DNA from: Burkholderia pseudomultivorans
GTDB lineage: Bacteria > Pseudomonadota > Gammaproteobacteria > Burkholderiales > Burkholderiaceae
Length of the DNA stretch: 64,000 bases
Assembly: GCF_001718415.1 (NCBI RefSeq)
Contig: NZ_CP013377.1
Span: 1,302,001-1,366,000, forward strand
Direction: 5' to 3'
Positions within the stretch are counted from its first letter, which is position 1. Each line of letters begins with the position of its first letter. Of the stretch, positions 33,723 through 45,446 are shown piece by piece. Both the position numbers and the translations under genes were made by a program. The notes under the pieces were generated by a model. It had not been told where the DNA came from and did not search any database. It worked only from the letters and a program-made list of their open reading frames with translations.

Positions 33723-34775
33723 TCATGCGTCCGCCGCGCCGCCTTCGGCGACTGCCGCATCATACAACGCGGTCTGCGCGATTGCCGCGGCGATCGCCGC
33801 GTCGTCGTGCGAGCCGTCGAGCATGCCCCAGCGCCGGTACTGCGACAGGAACCACAGTCCGTCGCGCGGCTCCGGCCGGTTGGCCGCCCCGCCGTCGTGG
33901 AAGCGGATCGGCAGCGGCGGTTCCGCGAACGGCCCCGCGCCGTAGTCGCCGAGCAGGCGCGGCGCGATCAGCCGGGCCGGCACGCCGAGCGCGTCGGGCG
34001 ACGCGAGCCAGCCGGCCGCTTCGGTGCGGTGCGCGGCGCTGTCGAGCCATGCGCACGCGTCGACGAGCGTGCGGATCAGCGCGCGCGCCGTCGCCGGATA
34101 CAGCGCGACGAAATCGCGCCGGCTCGCGAGCACCTTTTCCGGATGATCGGGCCAGATCTCGCTCGTGACGGCCACGGTGCGGCCCGCGCCGCACGCTTCG
34201 GCGACCGCGTGCCACGGCTCGCCCGCGCAGAAGCCGTCGAGCTCGCCGCTTGCCAGCGCCGCGACCATCTCGGGCGGCGGGATCACGACGCTGCGCACGT
34301 CGCGCAGCGGATCGATTGCGTGCGACGCGAGCCACGCATTCAGCCACATCGCGTGCGTGCCGGTCGGGAAAGTCTGCGCGAGCAGCGGCTTGCGGCCGAG
34401 CGTCGCGAAGGTGTCGCGCACGCTGCCGCTCGCGCGATACGCATCGGCCAGCGTGCGCGAGAACGTGATCGCCTGGCCGTTGCGGTTCAGCACCATCAGC
34501 GCCGCCATGTCGGCCTGCGGCCCGCCGATGCCGAGCTGCAGCCCGCAGACGAGCCCGTACAGCGCGTGCGCGGCGTCGAGCTGGCCGCTCAGCAGCTTGT
34601 CGCGCACGGCGGCCCACGACGGTTCGCGGCTCAGTTCGAGCGTCAGGCCGTGCGGCGCGCCGAGGTTCAGCCGCTGCGCGACGATCAGCGGCGCCGCGTC
34701 GCTGAGCGCGACGAAGCCGAGGCGGAGATGCGCGCGTTCCGGCGCGGCGGGAAGGGAAGGGTTCATGGCGTTCAT
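33723..34775 (-). CDS. nasS: NasS-type nitrate/nitrite sensor (NrtA/CmpA-like binding protein without signal peptide)
   Basis: 350 residues of the periplasmic-binding-protein fold (LRLGFVALSDAAPLIVAQRLNLGAPHGLTLELSREPSWAAVRDKLLSGQLDAAH, then PTGTHAMWLNAWLASHAIDP and ELDGFCAGEPWH). It lacks a signal peptide, as expected for cytoplasmic NasS rather than a transport protein. NasS binds nitrate or nitrite and in their absence holds NasT inactive. The ATG overlaps the nasT stop (ATGA), so the pair is made together. This gives the nitrate signal for the attenuators upstream of cobA and narK. Confidence 0.9.
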   Translation of the reverse strand: MNAMNPSLPAAPERAHLRLGFVALSDAAPLIVAQRLNLGAPHGLTLELSREPSWAAVRDKLLSGQLDAAHALYGLVCGLQLGIGGPQADMAALMVLNRNGQAITFSRTLADAYRASGSVRDTFATLGRKPLLAQTFPTGTHAMWLNAWLASHAIDPLRDVRSVVIPPPEMVAALASGELDGFCAGEPWHAVAEACGAGRTVAVTSEIWPDHPEKVLASRRDFVALYPATARALIRTLVDACAWLDSAAHRTEAAGWLASPDALGVPARLIAPRLLGDYGAGPFAEPPLPIRFHDGGAANRPEPRDGLWFLSQYRRWGMLDGSHDDAAIAAAIAQTALYDAAVAEGGAADA

Positions 34776-35368
34776 GGCTGGGGTGACGCGTCGAGCAGTT
34801 GGCGCGCCACGTCGACGATGCGCAGGCCCTGGTCCATCGCGCGCTTGCGCAGCGTCGCATACGCGTCGTGCTCGGACAGCCTGCGCTGATCCATCAGCAG
34901 GCGCTTTGCGCGGTCGATCAGCTTGCGGTCGGCGAGTTCGCGCTCGACGTCGGCGAGGCGGCGGCGCAGCGCGTCGTCGTGCGAGAAGCGCGCGAGCGCG
35001 ACTTCGAGAATCGGTGCGAGGCGCTCGGCCGACAGGCCTTCGACGAGATACGCGCTGACGCCCGCGCCGACCGCCGCGCGGATCAGTTGCTGGTCGGCGT
35101 CGTGGCTGAACATCAGCACCGGGCGCGGCGCGGTCGCATGCATCACCGCGAGCTGTTCGAGCGTGTCGCGCGACGGCGAATCGGTGTCGATGATCACGAC
35201 GTCGGGGCGTTGCTCCTCGACGGCGGCGGGCAGCCGCGCGGGCGTCGCGACGTCGTTCAGCATCTCGTAGCCGAGCCGCGCGAGCGCGTCGCCGAGTTCG
35301 CCGATCGGCTTGTCGGTATCGGTAACGAGCAGCACGCGCAGGCGCAGGGGCGAGGCGGACGTATTCAT
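34772..35368 (-). CDS. nasT: NasT-type ANTAR RNA-binding antiterminator
   Basis: 198 residues. An N-terminal receiver-like domain (VLLVTDTDKPIGELGDAL, RPDVVIIDTDSPSRDTLEQL) is followed by a coiled segment and a C-terminal ANTAR domain (about 135-195: KLIDRAKRLLMDQRRLSEHDAYATLRKRAMDQGLRIVDVARQLL). ANTAR proteins bind two-hairpin leaders with hexanucleotide loops and block an overlapping terminator. Matching leaders lie 1 to 1.5 kb away upstream of cobA and narK. The gene overlaps nasS by 4 bases and is 129 bases after cobA on the same strand. Confidence 0.92.
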   Translation of the reverse strand: MNTSASPLRLRVLLVTDTDKPIGELGDALARLGYEMLNDVATPARLPAAVEEQRPDVVIIDTDSPSRDTLEQLAVMHATAPRPVLMFSHDADQQLIRAAVGAGVSAYLVEGLSAERLAPILEVALARFSHDDALRRRLADVERELADRKLIDRAKRLLMDQRRLSEHDAYATLRKRAMDQGLRIVDVARQLLDASPQP

Positions 35369-35497
35369 GACGCGAACGGCGGCGGCAAAAGCGTGGCGGG
35401 CGGCGCGGATCGCAGGTCGATGCCGCACGCGGTGGCAGCGCGATCGCCGCTGTCTGCACGAAGGGTAGGCGGCCGGTGCCGCGTGACATCGCGCATG

Positions 35498-36280
35498 CTA
35501 CGCGGCCTGCGACAGCGGCGTTGCGCGCGTGGCGGCCGCGTCCGGCAGGCCTTGCGCGGCCGCCTCGCCGATCGCCGCGCCGACGAGGATCACGGCCGGG
35601 CTGCCGAGCCCCGCTTCCGCGACGCCGGGCGCGAGCCGGCCGAGCGTGCCGGTCCAGCGGCGTTCGGCAGGCGTGCCGGCCCACTGGACGGCCGCGGCCG
35701 GCGTCGAGGCAGGCAGCACGTCGAGCAGGCCGGCGGCGATTCGTTCGATGCGGCTCATGCCCATATAGATCGCGAGCGTCGTGCCGGCTGCCGCGACGCG
35801 CGACCAGTCGGGTTCGCCGTGGTCCTGCCGGTGCGCGGTGACGAACGTGACGCCGTGGCAGTGCTCGCGATGCGTGAGCGACACGCCGAGGCTCGCGGCG
35901 GCCGCGAAGCCCGACGAGATGCCGTTGACGATCTCGACCGGAATCGCGGCGGCGCGCAGCATCGCGAGCTCCTCGCCGGCGCGGCCGAACAGCAGCGCGT
36001 CGCCGCCCTTGACGCGCACCACGTGCGCGCCGCGCAGCGCGCAGCGGCGCATCAGCCGCTCGATGAACGCCTGCGGCGTCGAGCGGCAGCCGCCGCGCTT
36101 GCCGACCCGTACCACGCGCGCGCGCGGCGCGAGGTCGACGATACCGGGATCGACGAGATCGTCGAGCAGCAGCACGTCGGCGGCGGCGAGCGCTTTCACG
36201 GCCTTCAGCGTGAGGAGATCGAGGTCGCCGGGCCCGGCGCCCAGCAGGGTGACTTTGCCAGTCGTCATGTCGTGTTCCAT
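35498..36280 (-). CDS. cobA: Uroporphyrinogen-III C-methyltransferase (siroheme synthesis)
   Basis: 260 residues from the ATG at 36280; MTTGKVTLL at 36268 is an alternative. Two S-adenosylmethionine-dependent methylations turn uroporphyrinogen III into precorrin-2, the step before siroheme. Signatures: TLLGAGPGDLDLLTLKAVKAL at the start, VVRVGKRGG, and VVRVKGGDALLFGRAGEELAML. No CysG-type dehydrogenase/chelatase domain is present; the length is that of a stand-alone methyltransferase. Siroheme is the cofactor of the nitrite reductase NirB encoded divergently and of CysI. Expression would start at the minus-strand sigma-54 promoter (36470-36485) and pass the ANTAR-type leader. Confidence 0.93.
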   Translation of the reverse strand: MEHDMTTGKVTLLGAGPGDLDLLTLKAVKALAAADVLLLDDLVDPGIVDLAPRARVVRVGKRGGCRSTPQAFIERLMRRCALRGAHVVRVKGGDALLFGRAGEELAMLRAAAIPVEIVNGISSGFAAAASLGVSLTHREHCHGVTFVTAHRQDHGEPDWSRVAAAGTTLAIYMGMSRIERIAAGLLDVLPASTPAAAVQWAGTPAERRWTGTLGRLAPGVAEAGLGSPAVILVGAAIGEAAAQGLPDAAATRATPLSQAA

Positions 36281-36342: not shown

Positions 36343-36455
36343 GACGACGGCATCCGGCCGTGCCACGCACGAACGGACGCCGTTGTCCTGACGAGCCCGT
36401 CCGCGACGACGGGCCTGATCTTGCTGGGACTGCCCACCGGCGCCTTTGCCGGTGG
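36343..36455 (-). promoter_or_regulatory. ANTAR (NasT)-type two-hairpin leader upstream of cobA
   Basis: Read on the minus strand. First hairpin (36455 to 36434): an 8-bp stem CCACCGGC/GCCGGTGG closes the hexaloop AAAGGC. Second hairpin (36388 to 36375): a 4-bp stem GGAC/GTCC closes the hexaloop AACGGC. Both loops have A at position 1 and G at position 4, the key contacts of ANTAR proteins. The second hairpin overlaps a longer alternative stem (36375-36383 pairing with 36347-36355, 9 bp with one G-U, extendable to 36387/36343). It resembles a terminator but no T-run follows. The linker holds another stem (36394-36413, loop GTCGCG). Confidence 0.72.
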
Positions 36456-36469
36456 CATGACGCGGATTC

Positions 36470-36485
36470 AGCAATATCCGGGCCA
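36470..36485 (-). promoter_or_regulatory. Sigma-54 promoter for cobA
   Basis: On the minus strand TGGCCCG, 4 bases, then TTGCT: the GG and GC are exactly 10 bases apart, matching the RpoN consensus TGGCACG-N4-TTGCW except for one base. Expected start is about 36460, only about 5 bases before the first leader hairpin. Confidence 0.75.
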
Positions 36486-36631
36486 GCGTGGGCCGCACCC
36501 GGCAAGACGCGGCGTGCGACGACGCTGCATGCGCGTCCAGCCGCATCGCGCCGGGGGACGCAATGCCGCATCGGGGTGCGTCGCGGCCGGCCAATGCGCA
36601 CCGCGATGTCGCACGGCGACAGTGCTGCAGC

Positions 36632-36646
36632 GCACCACAACTGTGC
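36632..36646. promoter_or_regulatory. Candidate NtrC site in the divergent nitrate region
   Basis: GCACC-ACAAC-TGTGC, one mismatch from the NtrC half-sites GCACC-N5-GGTGC. It lies between the two sigma-54 promoters, about 130-170 bases from each start, a usual enhancer distance. Weaker partial copies are at 36565-36579 and 36598-36612. The stretch 36486-36747 holds no gene I can support. Confidence 0.4.
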
Positions 36647-36747: not shown

Positions 36748-36763
36748 TGGCATGGCGTTTGCG
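36748..36763 (+). promoter_or_regulatory. Sigma-54 promoter for narK-nirB-nirD-nasA
   Basis: TGGCATG, GCGT, TTGCG: GG (36749-36750) and GC (36761-36762) are 10 bases apart, a near-consensus RpoN promoter. Predicted start about 36774, just before the first hairpin of the leader at 36778. Confidence 0.75.
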
Positions 36764-36777
36764 TTAGCAGGTCCGGG

Positions 36778-36851
36778 CGGATCAATGGCGATCCGTTCGC
36801 AGCACCGAATACCGACGCGCCCGGCAACGGGCTTCATGGGCAACGGCGTCC
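36778..36851 (+). promoter_or_regulatory. ANTAR (NasT)-type two-hairpin leader upstream of narK
   Basis: First hairpin 36778-36795: a perfect 6-bp stem CGGATC/GATCCG with hexaloop AATGGC. Second hairpin 36838-36851: GGGC/GTCC (one G-U pair) with hexaloop AACGGC. Both loops have A1 and G4 and share the pattern AANGGC with the cobA-side leader. The loop and 3' arm of the second hairpin (36842-36851) are exactly the 5' arm of the terminator below, so the two folds exclude each other. NasT bound to both hairpins would stop the terminator forming when nitrate releases NasT from NasS. Confidence 0.78.
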
Positions 36852-36897
36852 TTCGCATCGGGTCTCGACGAGACCGGGTGCGCAGGACGCCGTTTTT
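36842..36897 (+). terminator. Attenuator terminator upstream of narK
   Basis: A 10-bp perfect outer stem (AACGGCGTCC at 36842-36851 with GGACGCCGTT at 36885-36894) encloses further pairing including GGTCTC/GAGACC. Five Ts (36893-36897) lie at its end, 15 bases before the narK ATG. Confidence 0.82.
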
Positions 36898-36912: not shown

Positions 36913-38238
36913 ATGACCGACAAAGCTACCCGTATCGATCTCTTCAGCCTCCGCACCGCGCCGATGCGCGTGTTTCACCTGACGTGGATGGCGTTCTTCG
37001 TCTGTTTCTTCGCGTGGTTCGCGTGCGCGCCGCTGATGCCGCTCATCGCGCGCGAATTCCACCTGAGCGCCGCGCAGGTCGCGAACATCAACATCGCGGC
37101 GGTCGCCGCGACCATCGCCGTGCGGCTGCTGGTCGGCCCGCTGTGCGACCGCTTCGGGCCGCGCCACGTGTATGCGGGGCTGCTGGTGCTCGGCGCGATT
37201 CCCGTGTTCGCGGTGTCGTTCACGCACGACTACCTGTCGTTCCTGATCTGCCGGCTCGGCATCGGCGCGATCGGCGCTGGCTTCGTGATCACGCAGTACC
37301 ACACGTCGGTGATGTTCGCGCCGAACGTGGTCGGCACCGCGAACGCGACGACGGCCGGCTGGGGCAACGCCGGCGCGGGCGCGACGCAGGCGCTGATGCC
37401 GCTGCTCGTTGCGGCCGGCATGATGCTCGGCTTCGGCGACGACGCGTCGTGGCGCGTCGCGCTCGTCGTGCCGGGCATCGCGATGCTGGCGATGGCCTGG
37501 GCGTACTGGCGCTACACGCAGGATTGCCCGCAAGGCGACTTCGTCGCGCTGCGCCGGCAGGGCGAGACCGTCGACAGCGGCAAGAAGGGCGGCTGGGCGA
37601 GCTTCTTCACCGCATGCGGCAACTATCGCGTGTGGATGCTGTTCGTCACGTACGGCGCGTGTTTTGGCGTCGAGGTGTTCATCCACAACATCGCCGCGCT
37701 GTACTACGTCGATCACTTCGGCCTGTCGCTGAAGGACGCCGGCCTCGCGGCCGGCCTGTTCGGGCTGCTCGCGCTGTTCGCACGCGCGCTCGGCGGCTGG
37801 CTGTCCGACCGGATCGCCGCGCGCCGCAGCCTCGACGTGCGCGCGGCGCTGCTCTGCGCGCTGATCGTCGGCGAAGGGCTCGGCCTCGTGTGGTTCTCGC
37901 ATGCGCAAAGCGTCGGCCTCGCGCTCGTCGCGATGCTCACCTTCGGCCTGTTCACGCACATGGCATGCGGCGCGACTTACGCGCTGGTGCCGTTCATCGA
38001 CCGCAAGGCGCTCGGCGGCGTCGCGGGGATCGTCGGCGCGGGCGGCAACGTCGGCGCGGTCGCCGCGAGTTTCCTGCTCAAGGGCGTCGGCGACGTGCAG
38101 CACACGCTGAGCCTGCTCGGGCTCGCCGTCACCGCGACCGCGCTGTGCGCGATGGCCGTGCGCTTCAGCGAGGAACACAAGGCACGCGAAGCCGAGCTGC
38201 GCGACCGCGCGCTCTCTGCCGCCAACGCCGCGAACTGA
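36913..38238 (+). CDS. narK: Nitrate/nitrite MFS transporter
   Basis: 441 residues with about 12 membrane segments. The nitrate-porter signatures are clear: MAFFVCFFAWFACAPLMPLIAREFHLS, VGPLCDRFGPRHVYAGLL, and the Gly-rich stretches NATTAGWGNAGAGATQALMP and GGVAGIVGAGGNVGAVAASFLL. It is the assimilatory NasA/NrtP-like type that brings nitrate into the cytoplasm. It is the first gene of the nitrate operon; nirB follows after 20 bases. Expression should need RpoN/NtrC and NasT antitermination at the leader immediately upstream. The symbol narK is used for the family; some authors call it nasA. Confidence 0.93.
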   Translation: MTDKATRIDLFSLRTAPMRVFHLTWMAFFVCFFAWFACAPLMPLIAREFHLSAAQVANINIAAVAATIAVRLLVGPLCDRFGPRHVYAGLLVLGAIPVFAVSFTHDYLSFLICRLGIGAIGAGFVITQYHTSVMFAPNVVGTANATTAGWGNAGAGATQALMPLLVAAGMMLGFGDDASWRVALVVPGIAMLAMAWAYWRYTQDCPQGDFVALRRQGETVDSGKKGGWASFFTACGNYRVWMLFVTYGACFGVEVFIHNIAALYYVDHFGLSLKDAGLAAGLFGLLALFARALGGWLSDRIAARRSLDVRAALLCALIVGEGLGLVWFSHAQSVGLALVAMLTFGLFTHMACGATYALVPFIDRKALGGVAGIVGAGGNVGAVAASFLLKGVGDVQHTLSLLGLAVTATALCAMAVRFSEEHKAREAELRDRALSAANAAN

Positions 38239-38258
38239 TCGATCGAAGGAACGTCATC

Positions 38259-40859
38259 ATGAAACTCATCGTCATCGGCCACGGGATGGTCGGCCACAAG
38301 CTCCTCGAATGCATCGCGGCGGAAGCGGGCGCGGCCGGCCGGCTGCAGGTCACCGTGCTCGGCGAGGAGCCGCGCCCGGCCTACGACCGCGTGCATCTGT
38401 CCGAATTCTTCGCGGGCAAGTCGGCGGACGACCTGTCGCTCGTCGAAGCCGGTTTCTTCGAGCGTCATCCGGCCTTCGACCTGCGCTTGAATGCGCGCGT
38501 CGCGTCGATCGATCGCGTCGCGCACACGGTCACGCTCGCGTCCGGTGAAACGCTCGCCTACGACAAGCTCGTGCTCGCGACGGGTTCGCGCCCGTTCGTG
38601 CCGCCGATGCCCGGACACGATCGCGCCGGTTGCTTCGTGTACCGGACCATCGAGGACCTCGAAGCGATGCAGGCGTGCGGCACGCATGCGCAACGCGGCG
38701 TCGTGGTCGGCGGCGGGCTGCTCGGCCTCGAATGCGCGAAGGCGCTGCGCGACATGGGGCTCGACACGCACGTCGTCGAATTCGCGCCGCGGCTGATGGC
38801 CGTGCAGGTCGACGACGGCGGCGGCCGGATGCTGCGCGCGAAGATCGAGGCGCTCGGCGTGACCGTGCATACGGGCAGGAACACGCTGGAGATCGTCGAC
38901 GGCGAAACCGGCGCGCACCGGATGGTGTTCGCCGACGGCACGCATCTCGATACCGACATGATCGTGTTCTCGGCCGGCATCCGCGCGCGCGACGAGCTGG
39001 CGCGCGCGTGCGGGCTGGAAATCGGCCCGCGCGGCGGCGTCGCGATCGACGACGCATGCCGCAGCAGCGACGCCGACATCTACGCGATCGGCGAATGCGC
39101 GGCGTGGAACGGCACCGTATACGGCCTCGTCGCGCCCGGCTACGACATGGCGCGCGTGGTCGCGAAGCAGCTCGGCGGCGAGGCGAACGGTTCGACTGCG
39201 TTGCCCACCTTTGCGGGCGCCGACATGAGCACCAAGCTGAAGCTGATGGGCGTCGACGTCGCGAGCATCGGCGACGCGCACGGCACGACGGCCGGCAGCC
39301 GCGTCTACCAGTACGCGGACGAGCGCCGCCAGGTCTACAAGAAGCTCGTCGTGTCGGACTGCGGCAAGTTCCTGCACGGCGCGGTGATGGTCGGCGATGC
39401 GGCCGAATACGGCACGCTGCTGCAGATGATGCTGAACCGCATCGAGCTGCCGGAGTCGCCGGAATTCCTGATCCTGCCGTCGTCGGACGGCGCGGCGAAG
39501 CCCGCGGTCGGCGTCGATGCGCTGCCGGACGGCGCGCAGATCTGCTCGTGCAACAACGTGTCGAAATCGCAGATCTGCGCGGCGGTCGCCGACGGCGCGA
39601 CGAGCCTCGGCGCGCTGAAGTCGTGCACGGGCGCGGGCACGTCGTGCGGCGGCTGCGTGCCGCTCGTCACGCAGATCATGAAGGCCGAGATGAAGAAGCA
39701 GGGCCTCGCGGTCGACAACCGCCTGTGCGAGCACTTCGCGCATTCGCGCCAGGAGCTGTTCCATCTGATCCGCGTCGAGCGCATCACGACCTTCGACGAA
39801 CTGCTCGCGAAGCACGGCCACGGGCTCGGCTGCGACATCTGCAAGCCGGCCGTCGCGGGCATTCTCGCGTCGTGCTTCAACGAGTTCGTGCTGAAGAAGG
39901 AGCATGCCGGGCTGCAGGATTCGAACGACTACTACCTCGCGAACATCCAGCGCGACGGCACCTATTCGGTCGTGCCGCGCATGCCGGGCGGCGAGGTCAC
40001 GCCCGAAGGGCTGATCGCGGTCGGGCAGGTCGCGAAGAAATACGGGCTCTACACGAAGATCACCGGCGGCCAGCGCGTCGACCTGTTCGGTGCGCGCGTC
40101 GAGCAGCTGCCGTCGATCTGGGAGGAGCTGATCGCGGCCGGCTTCGAATCGGGCCATGCATACGGCAAGGCCGTGCGCACCGTGAAGTCCTGCGTCGGTT
40201 CGACGTGGTGCCGCTATGGCGTCGACGATTCGGTCGGCCTCGCGATCGACATCGAGAACCGCTACAAGGGCTTGCGCGCGCCGCACAAGATCAAGTTCGG
40301 CGTGTCGGGCTGCACGCGCGAGTGCGCGGAAGCGCAGGGCAAGGACGTCGGGATCATCGCGACCGAGAAGGGCTGGAACCTGTACGTGTGCGGCAATGGC
40401 GGCATGAAGCCGCGCCACGCGGAACTGCTGGCCGCCGATCTCGATCGCGACACGCTGGTTCGCTATATCGACCGCTTCCTGATGTTCTACGTGCGCACCG
40501 CCGATCGCCTGCAGCGCACGAGCGTGTGGCGCGACAACCTCGAAGGCGGCCTCGACTACCTGATCGACGTCGTCGTGAACGACCGGCTCGGCATCGCGGC
40601 CGAGCTCGAGGCCGACATGCAGCACGTGGTCGATACCTACGAGTGCGAATGGAAGAAGGCCGTCGCCGATCCCGACACGCGCAAGCGCTTCCGGCATTTC
40701 GTGAACAGCGATACGCCGGACGCGAACATCGCGTTCGTCGAGACGCGCGGCCAGATCCGTCCCGCGACGCCGGAAGAGCGCCTGCGCGGCAAGCGCATCG
40801 CGATTCCCGTCGTCGCCGCGGATGTGCCGCAAGCCGTCGCCGAATCCGAAACCGCCTGA
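38259..40859 (+). CDS. nirB: Assimilatory NAD(P)H nitrite reductase, large subunit
   Basis: 866 residues. An FAD/NAD(P)H oxidoreductase domain starts at IVIGHGMVGHKLLE and includes RGVVVGGGLLGLECAKAL. A 2Fe-2S ferredoxin-like BFD segment has CSCNNVSK and CTGAGTSCGGC. The siroheme-4Fe-4S domain has CVGSTWCRYG and GVSGCTRECAEAQGKD with the cluster cysteines. It reduces nitrite to ammonium with NirD and siroheme from cobA. The ATG at 38259 has GAAGGA upstream; a longer in-frame extension is not supported by similarity. nirD starts 32 bases after the stop. Confidence 0.96.
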   Translation: MKLIVIGHGMVGHKLLECIAAEAGAAGRLQVTVLGEEPRPAYDRVHLSEFFAGKSADDLSLVEAGFFERHPAFDLRLNARVASIDRVAHTVTLASGETLAYDKLVLATGSRPFVPPMPGHDRAGCFVYRTIEDLEAMQACGTHAQRGVVVGGGLLGLECAKALRDMGLDTHVVEFAPRLMAVQVDDGGGRMLRAKIEALGVTVHTGRNTLEIVDGETGAHRMVFADGTHLDTDMIVFSAGIRARDELARACGLEIGPRGGVAIDDACRSSDADIYAIGECAAWNGTVYGLVAPGYDMARVVAKQLGGEANGSTALPTFAGADMSTKLKLMGVDVASIGDAHGTTAGSRVYQYADERRQVYKKLVVSDCGKFLHGAVMVGDAAEYGTLLQMMLNRIELPESPEFLILPSSDGAAKPAVGVDALPDGAQICSCNNVSKSQICAAVADGATSLGALKSCTGAGTSCGGCVPLVTQIMKAEMKKQGLAVDNRLCEHFAHSRQELFHLIRVERITTFDELLAKHGHGLGCDICKPAVAGILASCFNEFVLKKEHAGLQDSNDYYLANIQRDGTYSVVPRMPGGEVTPEGLIAVGQVAKKYGLYTKITGGQRVDLFGARVEQLPSIWEELIAAGFESGHAYGKAVRTVKSCVGSTWCRYGVDDSVGLAIDIENRYKGLRAPHKIKFGVSGCTRECAEAQGKDVGIIATEKGWNLYVCGNGGMKPRHAELLAADLDRDTLVRYIDRFLMFYVRTADRLQRTSVWRDNLEGGLDYLIDVVVNDRLGIAAELEADMQHVVDTYECEWKKAVADPDTRKRFRHFVNSDTPDANIAFVETRGQIRPATPEERLRGKRIAIPVVAADVPQAVAESETA

Positions 40860-40891: not shown

Positions 40892-41239
40892 ATGAACGAT
40901 CGTCTTCCGCTGTCGTGGACCCGCGTGTGCGCCCTCGACGATATCGTGCCGAACACCGGCGTGTGCGCGCTCGTCAACGGCGAGCAGGTCGCGGTGTTCC
41001 ATGTCACGCATGCCGAAGCCGGCGGCGTGTTCGCGATCGACAACGTCGATCCGGTGTCGCGCGCGGCCGTGATGTCGCGCGGGCTGATCGGCAGCCTCGG
41101 CGAACGGGTGGTCGTCGCGTCGCCGCTCTACAAGCAGCACTTCGACCTGCGCACCGGCGAATGCGTCGAGGCGCCGGAGCAGTCGGTGAACGCGTATCCG
41201 TCGCGGGTCGAGGACGGCTTCGTGTGGATCGCGGCCTGA
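40892..41239 (+). CDS. nirD: Nitrite reductase small subunit
   Basis: 115 residues with the Rieske-like fold of NirD (WTRVCALDDIVPNTGVCALVNGEQVAVFHV, FAIDNVDPVSRAAVMSRGLIG, ASPLYKQHFDLRTGECVE). As is usual for NirD, the Cys/His iron ligands of true Rieske proteins are missing. It supports NirB in electron transfer or complex stability. AAGGAGAG lies just before the ATG. The next gene, nasA, begins 16 bases after its stop. Confidence 0.95.
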   Translation: MNDRLPLSWTRVCALDDIVPNTGVCALVNGEQVAVFHVTHAEAGGVFAIDNVDPVSRAAVMSRGLIGSLGERVVVASPLYKQHFDLRTGECVEAPEQSVNAYPSRVEDGFVWIAA

Positions 41240-41255: not shown

Positions 41256-44200
41256 ATGACCGCCACCCCCGTCAAGAGCGTATGCCCGTACTGCGGCGTC
41301 GGCTGCGGGATGGTGCTGCACGTCGAGGACGGCGAGGTCGTCAAGGTGTCCGGCGACCCCGACCATCCGGCCAACTTCGGGCGGCTGTGCACGAAGGGTT
41401 CGTCGGCGCACGTCGCGCTGCGCCGCTCCGGGCGGCTCGATCGCGCGTTCGTGCGCCGCGCGCGCGAGGACGACCTCGTGCCGCTGCCCGCCCGCGATGC
41501 GATCGCCGAGACCGCGCGCCGGCTGCGTGCGGTGCTCGACGCGCATGGCCCCGACGCGCTGTCGTTCTACGTCTCCGGGCAGATGTCGATCGAGGCGCAG
41601 TATCTGGTCAACAAGCTCGCGAAGGGCTTCGTCGGCACCTGTAACATCGAGTCGAACTCGCGCCTCTGCATGGCGAGCGCGAGCACCGGCTACAAGCAGT
41701 CGCTCGGCGCGGACGGCCCGCCCGGCTCGTACCAGGACTTCGATCGCGCGAACCTGTTCTTCGTGATCGGCGCGAACATGGCCGACTGCCATCCGATCCT
41801 GTTCCTGCGCATGATGGATCGCGTGAAGGCCGGCGCGAAGCTGATCGTCGTCGATCCGCGCCGCACCGGCACCGCCGACAAGGCCGACCTGTTCCTGCAG
41901 ATCCGTCCCGGCACCGACCTCGCGCTGATGAACGGGCTGCTGCACCTGCTGCATGCGAACGGCCGCACCGATGCCGCCTTCATCGCCGAATTCACCGAAG
42001 GCTGGGACGCGATGCCCGCGTTCCTCGCCGACTACACGCCCGAGCGCGTCGCGGCGATCACGGGGCTGGCCGAGGCCGACATCCGCACCGCCGCGCAATG
42101 GATCGGCGACGCGCCCGAATGGACGAGCTGCTGGACGATGGGGCTCAACCAGAGCACGCACGGCGTGTGGAACACCAATGCGATCTGCAACCTGCATCTC
42201 GCGACGGGCCGCATCTGCCGCCCGGGCAGCGGACCGTTCTCGCTGACCGGCCAGCCCAACGCGATGGGCGGGCGCGAGATGGGCTACATGGGGCCGGGGC
42301 TGCCGGGGCAGCGCTCGACGCTGTCGGACGACGACCGCCGCTTCGTCGAGAACCTGTGGCGCGTCCCGCCCGGCACGCTGCGCGCGGAGGCCGGCGGCGG
42401 CACCGTCGACCTGTTCGCGCGGATGCAGGCCGGCGACGTGAAGGCGTGCTGGATCATCTGCACGAACCCGGTGGCGACCGTGCCGAACCGGCAGAACGTG
42501 ATCGCCGGGCTGCAGGCCGCGGAACTCGTGATCGCGCAGGACGCGTTCCTCGACACCGAGACCAACCGCTACGCGGACATCCTGCTGCCGGGCGCGCTGT
42601 GGGCCGAAGGCGACGGCGTGATGGTGAATTCCGAACGCAACATGACGCTGATGCGGCCCGCGATCGCGCCGCCCGGCGATGCGCTGCCCGACTGGCGCAT
42701 CGTCGCGGAGGTCGCGCGCGCGATGGGGTTCGCCGACGCGTTCGACTATGCGTCGGCGGCCGACGTGTTCGACGAGATCGTGCGCTTCTCGAATCCGGCG
42801 ACCGGCTACGACCTGCGCGGCGCGAGCCACGCGGCGCTGCGCGACGGACCCGTGCAGTGGCCGGTCGCGCCCGGCACGGCGCGCGACCGGCATCCGGTGC
42901 GTTATCTGAACGACGGCGCGAGCCAGACGCTGCGCACCGCGCCCGACGGCGATGCGGCGCGCCCGCCGCGCATCGCGTTTCCGACGCCGTCGGGCAAGGC
43001 GCGCTTTTATGCGCGCCCGCACGTCGCGCCGGCCGAGCTGCCGGACGACACGTTCCCGATCGTGCTGAACACCGGCCGGCTGCAGCACCAGTGGCACACG
43101 ATGACGAAGACGGGCAAGGTCGCGATGCTGAACAAGCTCAATCCGCGCCCGTTCGTCGAACTGCATCCGGACGATGCGCATACGCTCGGCATCGCGGCCC
43201 GGGACAGCGTCGAGATTCGCTCGGCGCGCGGCCGCGCGGTGCTGCCGGCCGTCGTGAGCGACCGCGTGCAGCGCGGCAACTGCTTCGCGCCGATGCACTG
43301 GAACGACGTGTACGGCGACGACCTGTGCGTCAACGCCGTCACGAACGACGCGATCGATGCCGAGTCGCAGCAGCCCGAACTGAAATACTGCGCGGTCGCG
43401 CTGACGCGCGTCGAAACGGACGCGTTCGCGTCCGCCGACGACGACACGGCGCAGCCCGACGTGTCCGCCGACGCCGCGCGTCCCGCGCCGGCCGTCACCT
43501 CACAGGAACCCGACATGGCAGACATCGATGCATTCGCGGTCGCGCTCGGCGTGGCCGATTTTGCGCCGCCGCCGCTGACCGATACGGAGCGGCTGTACGT
43601 GGCCGGCCTCGTCGGCGGCCTGAAGGCGAGCGCCGGACGGCGCGACGGCGGCGTGCCGGTGCTGCCCGCGCTCGCGCCGCTGACGCCGCCGGTGCGGCTC
43701 TGGCTCGACGGGATGCTGGCGGGGCTGTTCAGCCGTTCGACGCCTGCGCGCGTGACCGACGCCGCGTCGCCCGCATTGCCGGCCGATGCGTCGGCGGCGG
43801 CCGCGCCGGGCGGCGTGCGGATCGTGCGGACGCGCCCGAAGGTCGTGCTGCTGTGGGCGTCGCAGACGGGCAACATCGAATCGCTGACCGAGGATTACGC
43901 GACGCAGCTGATGAACGCCGGTTTCGAGATCCGCACCGCGTGCATGTCCGACTATCCGGTCGCGTCGCTTGCAGGCGCCCAGTACGTGCTGTTGATGACG
44001 AGCACGTTCGGCGACGGCGATCCGCCCGACAACGGCCGCGAATTTTCGGATGCGCTGCACGATGCATCGGCCGCGCGTCTCGACGGCGCACGGTTCGCGG
44101 TGCTCGCATTCGGCGATCGCAACTACGACCAGTTCTGCGGGCACGGCCGCCGGCTCGACGCGCGGCTCGCCGAACTCGGTGCGACGCGCCTGTGTGCGCG

Positions 44201-45446
44201 CGTCGATTGCGACGTCGAGTTCCAGCGCGACGCCGACCAGTGGCTCGAGCGCGTGATCGCACGGATCAAGGAAGCGGATGCCGCGCTGCACGCGGTGCCG
44301 AGCGGTGCGCCGGGCGCGACGGGGCTGCTGCCGACCAAGGCGCATCCCGCACCGTCGAGGCTCGTCGCGAACCTGCGGCTGAACCGCCCGGGCGCGGCGA
44401 AGGATACGCGCTACGTGTCGCTGTCGACCGAAGGCGCGAACCTCGAATACGAAACCGGCGACGCGCTCGGCGTGTGGCCGACCAATTGCCCGGAACTGGT
44501 CGACGAACTGCTCGCCGTCACCGCGCTGAAGGCCGATACGCCCGTGTCGCTGCCGGGCATCGGCGAGCTGCGCCTCGGCGACGCGCTCGCGCGTCACTGC
44601 GACATCACGCGCCCGCATCCCGACACGCTCGCGTTCATCGCATCGCGCAGCGCGAACGGCGCACTGAAGGCGCTGCTCGGCGAGGACCGCAAGGCCGACC
44701 TGAAGCAGTGGCTGTGGGGCCAGCAGCTTGCGGACGTGCTGCACGAGTTCCCGGTCGAGCTGTCCGGCGGCGAACTGGTCGGCATGCTCAAGCGCCTGCA
44801 GCCGCGTCTCTATTCGATCGCGTCGAGCCCGAGCGCACATCGCGGCGAGATTCACCTGACCGTGTCGGCAGTGCGCTATCACAACGGCCGGCGCGCGCGC
44901 AAAGGCGTCGCGTCGACCTTCCTCGCCGATCGCGCGGAAGACGGCCGCGTACCGGTGTTCGTGCAGAAGTCCGCGCATTTCCGTCCGCCCGTGAGCGGCG
45001 ACGTGCCGATCGTGATGGTCGGTCCCGGCACCGGCGTCGCGCCGTTTCGCGGCTTCCTGCACGAGCGGCAGGCGAGTGGCGCGCGCGGCCGCAACTGGCT
45101 GTTCTTCGGCGAGCAGCATGCGCAGACCGACTTCTACTACGGCGACGAGTTGACCGCGATGCGCGACAGCGGCTTCCTGACGCGGCTCGACCTCGCGTTC
45201 TCGCGCGACCAGGCCGACAAGATCTACGTGCAGGACCGGATGCGCGAGCACGGCGCCGAGCTGTTCGCGTGGCTGGAGGAGGGCGCGCACGTCTACGTGT
45301 GCGGCGACGCCGCGCGCATGGCGAAGGACGTCGACGCGGCGCTGAAGTCGGTGGTTGCCGAGCACGGCGGGATGTCCGCGGACGGCGCGAACGAGTATGT
45401 CGCGCGGCTCGCGAAGGCGCGGCGCTATGTGCGCGATGTGTACTGA
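41256..45446 (+). CDS. nasA: Assimilatory nitrate reductase fused to a CysJ-like FMN/FAD reductase
   Basis: 1396 residues. About residues 1-740 form a molybdopterin (MGD) reductase with an N-terminal 4Fe-4S cluster (C10, C13, C17, C45). Further motifs are SNSRLCMASASTGYKQSLG, ADRIDPRR-like VVDPRRTGTADKADLFLQIRPGTDLAL and NTGRLQHQWHTMTKTGK. A linker follows. Then comes a flavodoxin domain (from about 860, KVVLLWASQTGNIESLTEDYA with TFGDGDPPDNGREF), an FAD domain (RLYSIASSPSAHRGEIHLTV) and an NADPH domain (VGPGTGVAPFRGFLHER to the C terminus). The fusion brings electrons from NADPH straight to the nitrate site, so no separate reductase subunit is needed. It ends the operon. Confidence 0.95.
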   Translation: MTATPVKSVCPYCGVGCGMVLHVEDGEVVKVSGDPDHPANFGRLCTKGSSAHVALRRSGRLDRAFVRRAREDDLVPLPARDAIAETARRLRAVLDAHGPDALSFYVSGQMSIEAQYLVNKLAKGFVGTCNIESNSRLCMASASTGYKQSLGADGPPGSYQDFDRANLFFVIGANMADCHPILFLRMMDRVKAGAKLIVVDPRRTGTADKADLFLQIRPGTDLALMNGLLHLLHANGRTDAAFIAEFTEGWDAMPAFLADYTPERVAAITGLAEADIRTAAQWIGDAPEWTSCWTMGLNQSTHGVWNTNAICNLHLATGRICRPGSGPFSLTGQPNAMGGREMGYMGPGLPGQRSTLSDDDRRFVENLWRVPPGTLRAEAGGGTVDLFARMQAGDVKACWIICTNPVATVPNRQNVIAGLQAAELVIAQDAFLDTETNRYADILLPGALWAEGDGVMVNSERNMTLMRPAIAPPGDALPDWRIVAEVARAMGFADAFDYASAADVFDEIVRFSNPATGYDLRGASHAALRDGPVQWPVAPGTARDRHPVRYLNDGASQTLRTAPDGDAARPPRIAFPTPSGKARFYARPHVAPAELPDDTFPIVLNTGRLQHQWHTMTKTGKVAMLNKLNPRPFVELHPDDAHTLGIAARDSVEIRSARGRAVLPAVVSDRVQRGNCFAPMHWNDVYGDDLCVNAVTNDAIDAESQQPELKYCAVALTRVETDAFASADDDTAQPDVSADAARPAPAVTSQEPDMADIDAFAVALGVADFAPPPLTDTERLYVAGLVGGLKASAGRRDGGVPVLPALAPLTPPVRLWLDGMLAGLFSRSTPARVTDAASPALPADASAAAAPGGVRIVRTRPKVVLLWASQTGNIESLTEDYATQLMNAGFEIRTACMSDYPVASLAGAQYVLLMTSTFGDGDPPDNGREFSDALHDASAARLDGARFAVLAFGDRNYDQFCGHGRRLDARLAELGATRLCARVDCDVEFQRDADQWLERVIARIKEADAALHAVPSGAPGATGLLPTKAHPAPSRLVANLRLNRPGAAKDTRYVSLSTEGANLEYETGDALGVWPTNCPELVDELLAVTALKADTPVSLPGIGELRLGDALARHCDITRPHPDTLAFIASRSANGALKALLGEDRKADLKQWLWGQQLADVLHEFPVELSGGELVGMLKRLQPRLYSIASSPSAHRGEIHLTVSAVRYHNGRRARKGVASTFLADRAEDGRVPVFVQKSAHFRPPVSGDVPIVMVGPGTGVAPFRGFLHERQASGARGRNWLFFGEQHAQTDFYYGDELTAMRDSGFLTRLDLAFSRDQADKIYVQDRMREHGAELFAWLEEGAHVYVCGDAARMAKDVDAALKSVVAEHGGMSADGANEYVARLAKARRYVRDVY

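Follow-up and report, generated by a model that had tools for sequence, protein, structure and literature searches.

A leader with widely spaced hexaloop hairpins upstream of narK in Burkholderia pseudomultivorans is very probably a NasT-dependent attenuator

Switches in which ANTAR-domain proteins act on hexaloop hairpins in front of a terminator are already known, and the closest described systems are summarised here from the accessible text of the reports cited. EutV target RNAs carry two hairpins with A1/G4 hexaloops, the second of which overlaps the terminator (PMC3369931, PMC8934654); natural linkers between the hairpins are 5-12 nt long, induction falls drastically when the linker is 3 or 14 nt (PMC3369931), and extension of the linker by 20 nt abolished antitermination in vitro (PMC8934654). 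From the structure of EutV with RNA, its authors argue that one dimer cannot hold both hairpins at once and take a single hexaloop as the minimal target (PMC8934654). How ANTAR proteins use two hairpins is still argued, and the structure suggests a hand-over with strict spacing. In Klebsiella oxytoca, NasR, a one-component NIT-ANTAR regulator, controls the nasF terminator in response to nitrate via two hairpins with C-G-closed A1/G4 hexaloops, and C:G was selected in NasR SELEX (PMC7496416). Nitrate assimilation in Paracoccus denitrificans is under NasS-NasT control via leader hairpins, NasT binding the nasA leader in vitro after its nitrate-driven release from NasS (PMC3795266). Of its two hairpins, HI lies 137 bp and HII 91 bp ahead of nasA; HI is essential, and mutation of HII has little effect on induction (PMC5424462). 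By these stated positions the hairpins are 46 bp apart, so a system already under study may likewise have a wide spacing. Finally, a curation of actinobacterial ANTAR RNAs accepted linkers of 2-25 nt (PMC8164766).

The window analysed here is a stretch of 64,000 nucleotides from Burkholderia pseudomultivorans. The original prediction, made from its sequence, proposed a NasT-type attenuator in front of narK, with two A1/G4 hexaloop hairpins (AATGGC and AACGGC), the second sharing bases with a terminator. Both hairpins are present, and the elements of the narK leader are as follows (window positions).

36611-36625, strand not given: NtrC-like site GCAC-N7-GTGC, from a pattern search
36632-36646, strand not given: second NtrC-like site GCAC-N7-GTGC, from a pattern search
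36748-36762, forward strand: sigma54-type promoter TGGCATG-N4-TTGC, with a predicted start near 36774, the first base of H1
36774-36799, forward strand: hairpin H1, CGGGCGGATC(AATGGC)GATCCGTTCG, 10 bp including two G-T pairs, loop at 36784-36789, supported by covariation and the promoter-anchored test
36819-36832, forward strand: middle hairpin GCCCG(GCAA)CGGGC, its loop not an A1/G4 hexaloop, occupying the position of H2 in Oxalobacteraceae
36838-36851, forward strand: H3, the proposed antiterminator, GGGC(AACGGC)GTCC, 4 bp including one G-T pair, loop at 36842-36847
36842-36897, forward strand: intrinsic terminator with an 11-bp outer stem, an inner stem and five Ts, mutually exclusive with H3

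The bases common to H3 and the 5' arm of the terminator are 36842-36851, exactly as the original prediction gave them. The terminator itself was described slightly differently: the 5' arm AACGGCGTCCT (36842-36852) pairs with AGGACGCCGTT (36884-36894) and runs into TTTTT (36893-36897), so that the five Ts are as predicted, but the stem is 11 bp rather than 10 bp in length and encloses an additional inner stem. The pair that closes the loop is C-G in both H1 and H3. Folding of the leader yielded a z-score of -6.06, with 0 of 200 shuffles as low, and the minimum-energy fold contained H1 and the terminator without H3, which was absent from the lowest-energy fold even when the 3' arm of the terminator was omitted; H3 on its own is a weak hairpin. 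Since the computed energy of the terminator hairpin is far lower than that of H3 (-42.1 versus -3.4 kcal/mol), the default state of the leader should be OFF. A simple promoter/terminator scan of the window failed to find a terminator at the narK leader, because the loop limit of the scan (3-8) excludes such a stem. Rfam models gave no match in the window at gathering scores, and sub-gathering matches to microRNA families were discarded as irrelevant.

Next, conservation of H1 was examined across 80 relatives with a narK locus, 79 of which were placed on the narK tree; narK in the window shares 99% identity with its Burkholderia pseudomultivorans counterpart. An alignment revealing compensatory changes had been suggested as a check on the original prediction, and it bore the prediction out: the H1 stem is conserved across the relatives with compensatory changes, and covariation exceeded that in shuffles in four of five measures. 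For 60 of the 65 distinct H1 sequences (L151, L152, L156, L047 minus and L060 minus being omitted), pairing in the stem held in 93.9% of cells and covariation scored 0.653 compared with 0.194 when shuffled, none of 500 shuffles scoring as high; the remaining measure, the number of pairs changed on both sides, was not above the shuffles (5 versus 4.7). Since the hairpins in the covariation sets were chosen for having a stem, fairer evidence is provided by a promoter-anchored test, in which the first loop was placed by its distance from the sigma54 promoter alone and AA.G, though no stem, was required. Ten of the 81 sequences gave no loop at that distance; after removal of duplicates, a stem of at least 4 bp was found in 54 of 60 distinct leaders as opposed to 1.35 expected from shuffled flanks. 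RNAalifold analysis of 18 leaders recovered H1 and the terminator, with part of H3 paired with sequence 3' of H1. Alternatively, the hexaloops could be fortuitous and the element a plain terminator without regulation, or an insulator separating the two divergent operons, given that the terminator alone is very stable and that its outer stem is mostly invariant in alignment A3. However, this explanation is barely credible, since the covariation and the promoter-anchored stem counts rule out chance hairpins, and the leader pattern co-occurs with NasT, as described below. In addition, with a sigma54 promoter upstream of it, an unregulated terminator would shut the operon permanently; a purely constitutive terminator was rejected on this ground and on that of the NasT co-occurrence.

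The genes flanking the leader were identified as follows.

36913-38238, forward strand: narK, MFS nitrate/nitrite transporter (Pfam MFS_1; narK tree)
38256-40859, forward strand: nirB, nitrite reductase large subunit (Pfam NIR_SIR, Pyr_redox_2, Fer2_BFD)
40892-41239, forward strand: nirD, nitrite reductase small subunit (Pfam Rieske_2)
41256-45446, forward strand: nasA-type assimilatory nitrate reductase fused to flavodoxin/FAD/NAD domains (Pfam)
35498-36268, reverse strand: cobA, uroporphyrinogen-III methyltransferase (siroheme), with its start at MTTGK (Pfam TP_methylase)
34772-35428, reverse strand: nasT, receiver-like and ANTAR domains, RNA-contact residues kept (Pfam)
33723-34802, reverse strand: putative nasS, nitrate-binding-type sensor (Pfam NMT1_2)

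The expected nasT gene is indeed encoded close to the leader and, according to Pfam, nasT and nasS are both next door. The arrangement is that of NasS-NasT systems, with a receiver-like/ANTAR protein encoded beside a nitrate-binding-type sensor, the latter being provisionally named nasS by its position and by analogy with the Paracoccus system. The two frames, as bounded here, overlap by approximately 30 bases (34772-34802), which suggests translational coupling. EutV residues R142, K143, K147, K149, E160, Y164 and M172 are named as RNA contacts or as critical in the accessible text of the structural study (PMC8934654), and alignment of NasT to PDB 6wsh identified R168, K169, R173, K175, E186, Y190 and M198 as their counterparts, six of the seven being identical and the seventh changed from K to R; matching residues point to a numbering offset of 2 in the 6wsh chain. 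Three ANTAR matches are present in the genome from which the window derives, and the leader might conceivably answer to one of the other two proteins or bind a small molecule itself. Both possibilities appear very improbable, in that nasT is the only one of the three genes adjacent to the leader, nasT or nasS lies beside the leaders of most relatives, and no riboswitch family reached its gathering score in the window. The two ANTAR-domain matches beyond NasT are located at G000:C2:1099477-1099629 (L082) and G000:C1:1770220-1770381 (L083).

The sequence at 36748-36762 is presumably a sigma54 promoter, given its match to the consensus, and would place H1 at the 5' end of the predicted transcript. 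Comparable promoters lie 32-43 nt (mostly 33-37 nt) upstream of the first loop in 102 of the 121 leaders having H1. The GCAC-N7-GTGC sequences resemble the NtrC consensus. In 49 of the 80 relatives such a site was found no further than 400 bp ahead of narK, compared with 0.9 expected, in a count where the relatives are related sequences and mononucleotide shuffling is a weak control. The presence of these elements at narK agrees with data for an ntrC mutant of B. cenocepacia H111, in which every gene of the following set is lowered: in the accessible part, the table values are -6.6 for a nitrate/nitrite transporter, -6.5 for nirB, -6.8 for nirD, -6.7 for nitrate reductase, -8.1 for nasT and -4.2 for a nitrate-binding protein, and most such NtrC-dependent genes need sigma54 as well (PMC5491218). 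Judged by gene names and order, these genes are the likely counterparts of those in the window. Nitrate assimilation in Burkholderia may be subject to a two-input logic, with nitrogen shortage acting at the sigma54/NtrC promoter and nitrate acting at the terminator.

The association between leader and regulator was examined in 399 genomes of the order, of which 51 contained the strict H3-terminator pattern. A NasT-like protein (E 1e-10) was found in 43 of these compared with 116 of the 348 pattern-negative genomes; with seven candidates scored per genome, the other eight pattern-positive genomes gave no NasT match. Since the genomes are related, only seven candidates were scored in each, and the window's own genome is counted as pattern-negative because its H3 begins GGGC, the co-occurrence is regarded as supporting evidence only. 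A more specific case is provided by Burkholderia guangdongensis (L010), the genome of which gave no ANTAR match with 79 of 79 candidates scored, the NasT search being negative also. The locus still holds narK and cobA but neither nasT nor nasS, and its best match to nirB reaches only 38% identity. Both sigma54 promoters are kept. In the narK leader an H1-like hairpin and the middle hairpin persist as well, whereas H3 and the terminator have disappeared; between the cobA promoter and the start codon, the leader has been deleted. NasT and an intact narK leader both occur in L078, the sister of B. guangdongensis on the narK tree, so the loss in B. guangdongensis is secondary. Other loci fit less neatly: the cobA leader is missing from L078 and L016 despite their NasT, and H3 is retained (without the U-tract in L070) in L022, L060 and L070, for which the NasT search at E 1e-8 was negative, although each has some ANTAR protein. 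The search at E 1e-8 covered 38 genomes, from the 80 loci, with L073 and L021 left out. A search of the window's own genome for the loop with a U-tract terminator returned four places (two in a backward control), and of the four the narK leader alone shows the complete anatomy; since searches that depend on a U-tract miss leaders such as that of cobA, narK is not claimed as the sole target. A two-loop search of the same genome was rejected, having returned 22 matches compared with 23 in the backward control, with a gap range that excluded the narK leader.

The feature that sets the narK leader apart is the linker between H1 and H3, which is 38 nt with the full 10-bp H1, or 42 nt if H1 is counted as 6 bp. 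The leader shares A1/G4 hexaloops, C-G closure, exclusion of the terminator, and conservation with compensatory changes with ANTAR dual-hairpin targets, but its linker lies outside both the EutV range, in which lengthening (to 14 nt or by 20 nt) is inhibitory, and the range accepted in the actinobacterial curation. The original prediction, that the full logic of an ANTAR-controlled attenuator is present, stands with regard to anatomy, conservation, covariation, the adjacent NasT and the association across genomes; with a non-canonical linker, however, the leader would represent a variant working like the ANTAR-target family rather than a canonical member. It resembles the K. oxytoca nasF leader in its closed hexaloops, paired hairpins, terminator and predicted nitrate signal, differing in having NasS-NasT in place of the one-component NasR. 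The P. denitrificans nasA leader has the same type of regulator and, likewise, two hairpins, although its nasTS genes lie upstream in line whereas nasT-nasS is divergent in the window, and the accessible text on that system describes no sigma54 promoter, middle hairpin or third hexaloop, unlike the leaders of the window and its relatives (PMC3795266, PMC5424462). A linker so far above the EutV range, together with the single-hexaloop minimal target of EutV and the location of H1 at the predicted transcription start, could indicate that H3 alone is the target of NasT, with H1 serving to protect the 5' end of the mRNA or to concentrate NasT near the polymerase. This seems unlikely. The loop of H1 retains AA.G, closed by an invariant C-G pair, above a covarying stem; such constraint would be superfluous in a hairpin that only shields the 5' end, albeit that the loop was among the criteria by which these hairpins were chosen. 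Moreover, it is the upstream hairpin that is essential in Paracoccus, and NasR, in the accessible text of that study, binds one hairpin approximately tenfold worse than two (PMC7496416).

In order to place the long linker in context, a set of 140 distinct leaders was compared, each having an H3 that fits GG[AG]CAA[ACT]GGCGTCC, a terminator arm and Ts, the loci having been chosen by narK, RF03032 or the H3 pattern. Sixty were classed as spaced (a far H1 with no A1/G4 hairpin between), 40 as triple (H1, H2 and H3), 21 as compact (one hairpin near H3) and 19 as having neither upstream hairpin. A middle AA.G hexaloop hairpin is thus present in 40 of the 100 leaders with a far H1, as opposed to 0.53 in gap shuffles, and the H2 stems covary (0.843 versus 0.264 when shuffled) in 24 of the 27 distinct H2 sequences, L151, L152 and L156 being omitted. 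Linkers in compact leaders are 4-23 nt (median 12). H1-H3 linkers are 32-54 nt (median 42) in spaced leaders and 34-48 nt (median 40) in triple leaders, in which the H1-H2 and H2-H3 medians are 17 and 7 nt. On the narK tree the leader forms follow families, the outgroups having no comparable leader: 22 of 26 named Oxalobacteraceae narK loci are triple, whereas none of the 45 named Burkholderiaceae narK loci is, 36 being spaced with H1 and H3 both found, five having H3 without a qualifying H1 and four lacking the H3-terminator form. These counts omit L046, a triple leader from a metagenome locus that is titled Burkholderiaceae but whose narK falls among the Oxalobacteraceae, and class as compact L074, which is triple by eye, its first hairpin lying just beyond the distance limit. 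Of 10 matches from outside the order, three (L172, L173, L174) are triple by the same rule. The window leader is of the spaced form. Three loci of one genus differ in the middle hairpin at similar spacing, which has an A1/G4 hexaloop in L103 and L160 and a non-hexaloop in L101; a third station may have been gained or lost recently here.

The middle hairpin at 36819-36832 could conceivably act as a structural spacer that folds the linker away, so that H1 and H3 behave as a normal close pair. The hairpin GCCCG..CGGGC is present in Burkholderia and Caballeronia, Ralstonia spacers hold two hairpins, the spacer z in the window is -1.95, and the spacer hairpins of L101 (-4.97) and L106 (-4.82) are strong. 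Against this, the mean z over the 60 spaced leaders, which are not independent, is -1.13, and several Paraburkholderia spacers are unfolded (z above 0), indicating that a spacer strut is not general. Within Burkholderia the middle stem is invariant, and covariation consequently gives no evidence for it. RNAalifold also omitted the hairpin in alignment A3, where the aligner misplaced it; since the middle hairpins of Burkholderia and Caballeronia were not brought into register by MAFFT, the RNAalifold result was not used for this hairpin. The spacer function is accordingly regarded as possible but doubtful.

Considered as a whole, the narK leader is very probably a NasT attenuator, and the scheme that follows, from the promoter through to a NasT-held H3 and a bridged linker, is judged to be the best explanation with a probability of roughly 0.87. 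Transcription of narK-nirB-nirD-nasA would start from the sigma54/NtrC promoter at 36748-36762, at or near H1. By default, the terminator at 36842-36897 would form, being far more stable than H3, and transcription would stop before narK. In the presence of nitrate or nitrite, NasS would release NasT, which would bind H1 on its emergence and then capture and hold H3, keeping 36842-36851 out of the terminator and permitting read-through by the polymerase. The 38-nt gap would be bridged without a third recognition hairpin, either by folding of the spacer (36819-36832) or by tolerance on the part of NasT, perhaps as an oligomer. A second leader, which lacks a U-tract here, would lie divergently before cobA-nasT-nasS.

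The elements of this divergent leader are as follows.

36471-36485, reverse strand: sigma54-type promoter TGGCCCG-N4-TTGC, upstream of cobA-nasT-nasS
36434-36455, reverse strand: hairpin H1', CCACCGGC(AAAGGC)GCCGGTGG, 8 bp with hexaloop AAAGGC
36375-36388, reverse strand: hairpin H3', GGAC(AACGGC)GTCC
36347-36383, reverse strand: hairpin alternative to H3', pairing ACGGCGTCCG with CGGATGCCGT, which resembles a terminator but has no U-tract

A middle hairpin is also present between H1' and H3', and the loop and 3' arm of H3' can alternatively pair with CGGATGCCGT at 36356-36347. The leader folds with a z-score of -4.43. In the promoter-anchored test, the H1' stem was found in all 16 distinct relatives having the loop compared with 0.57 expected, and both loops are present in 25 of 28 sequences (relatives plus window). 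A U-tract after the competing hairpin was detected by pattern in seven of the 28 (Caballeronia and Candidatus B. verschuerenii), and by eye in L025 too; the pattern did not find one in the window. These features suggest that the leader before cobA-nasT-nasS is a second one of the same kind as the narK leader, in which case NasT may control its own operon in this group.

The Rfam narK RNA (RF03032) aligned with the window over the full length of the model but scored 16.5 bits, below its gathering score of 43.2. The RF03032 consensus comprises a sigma54-like start, then GGcagCC(AACGGC)GGcugCC, and then CGAC(AAAGAC)GUCG, which is a second A1/G4 hexaloop hairpin that is unpaired in the structure line of the family. 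It resembles the window in having the same sigma54-like sequence with an A1/G4 hexaloop hairpin at the same distance after it, and differs in that its second hairpin follows approximately 8 nt after the first, where the window has a single-stranded spacer. Matches at E 0.001 or better were found in 23 of 200 genomes of the order, three being above the gathering score. Among 20 retrieved matches, at least two A1/G4 hexaloop hairpins were present in 19, including all three above the gathering score; a terminator was found in 16 by a strict pattern and in the other four by eye; and 19 had a nasT, nasS/nitrate-binding, nirB or nasA homologue within the fetched stretch. Given the hexaloop hairpins, terminators and gene context, RF03032 is read as a sigma54 promoter with a close-pair NasT leader, and so looks like the same element. 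Neither "narK RNA" nor "narK motif" was found in the literature searched, outside of which the original description lies; as far as that literature shows, RF03032 has been known as a motif only, and this reading would offer it a function.

While the switch type is familiar, the natural spacing series, the place of the window's long linker within it, the interpretation of RF03032 and the divergent leader that accompanies the narK one are less ordinary. The original prediction mentioned neither the sigma54 promoter nor the middle hairpin, the divergent leader or the relation to RF03032. Within one bacterial order, hairpins occur as close pairs, as arrays of three and as pairs with a long linker, for the most part in front of nitrate genes, and this natural spacing experiment allows hand-over to be tested directly on natural RNAs. 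Tentatively, and with the balance of judgement somewhat against it, the observations may be joined in a single relay model, in which ANTAR leaders of nitrate operons often work as relays and not as pairs, three hexaloop hairpins pass NasT down the nascent RNA as far as the hairpin that blocks the terminator, the Burkholderiaceae keep the first and last stations approximately 40 nt apart, RF03032 is the short two-station form, and NasT may control its own synthesis. If this were true, NasT of the Burkholderiaceae would act beyond the EutV distance rule, for example as a higher oligomer.

Two further variations were observed among the relatives. At five Paraburkholderia-group loci, a second similar leader is present on the forward strand in the narK-nirB gap (L012 at ~5614, L013 at ~5605, L018 at ~5601, L021 at ~5641 and L027 at ~2011). 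Upstream of narK in L056, L070 and L073, which form one long-branched clade on the narK tree, H3 and a matching terminator arm are kept and the U-tract is replaced, GGGACGCCG being followed by CAGTCG or TAGTCG.
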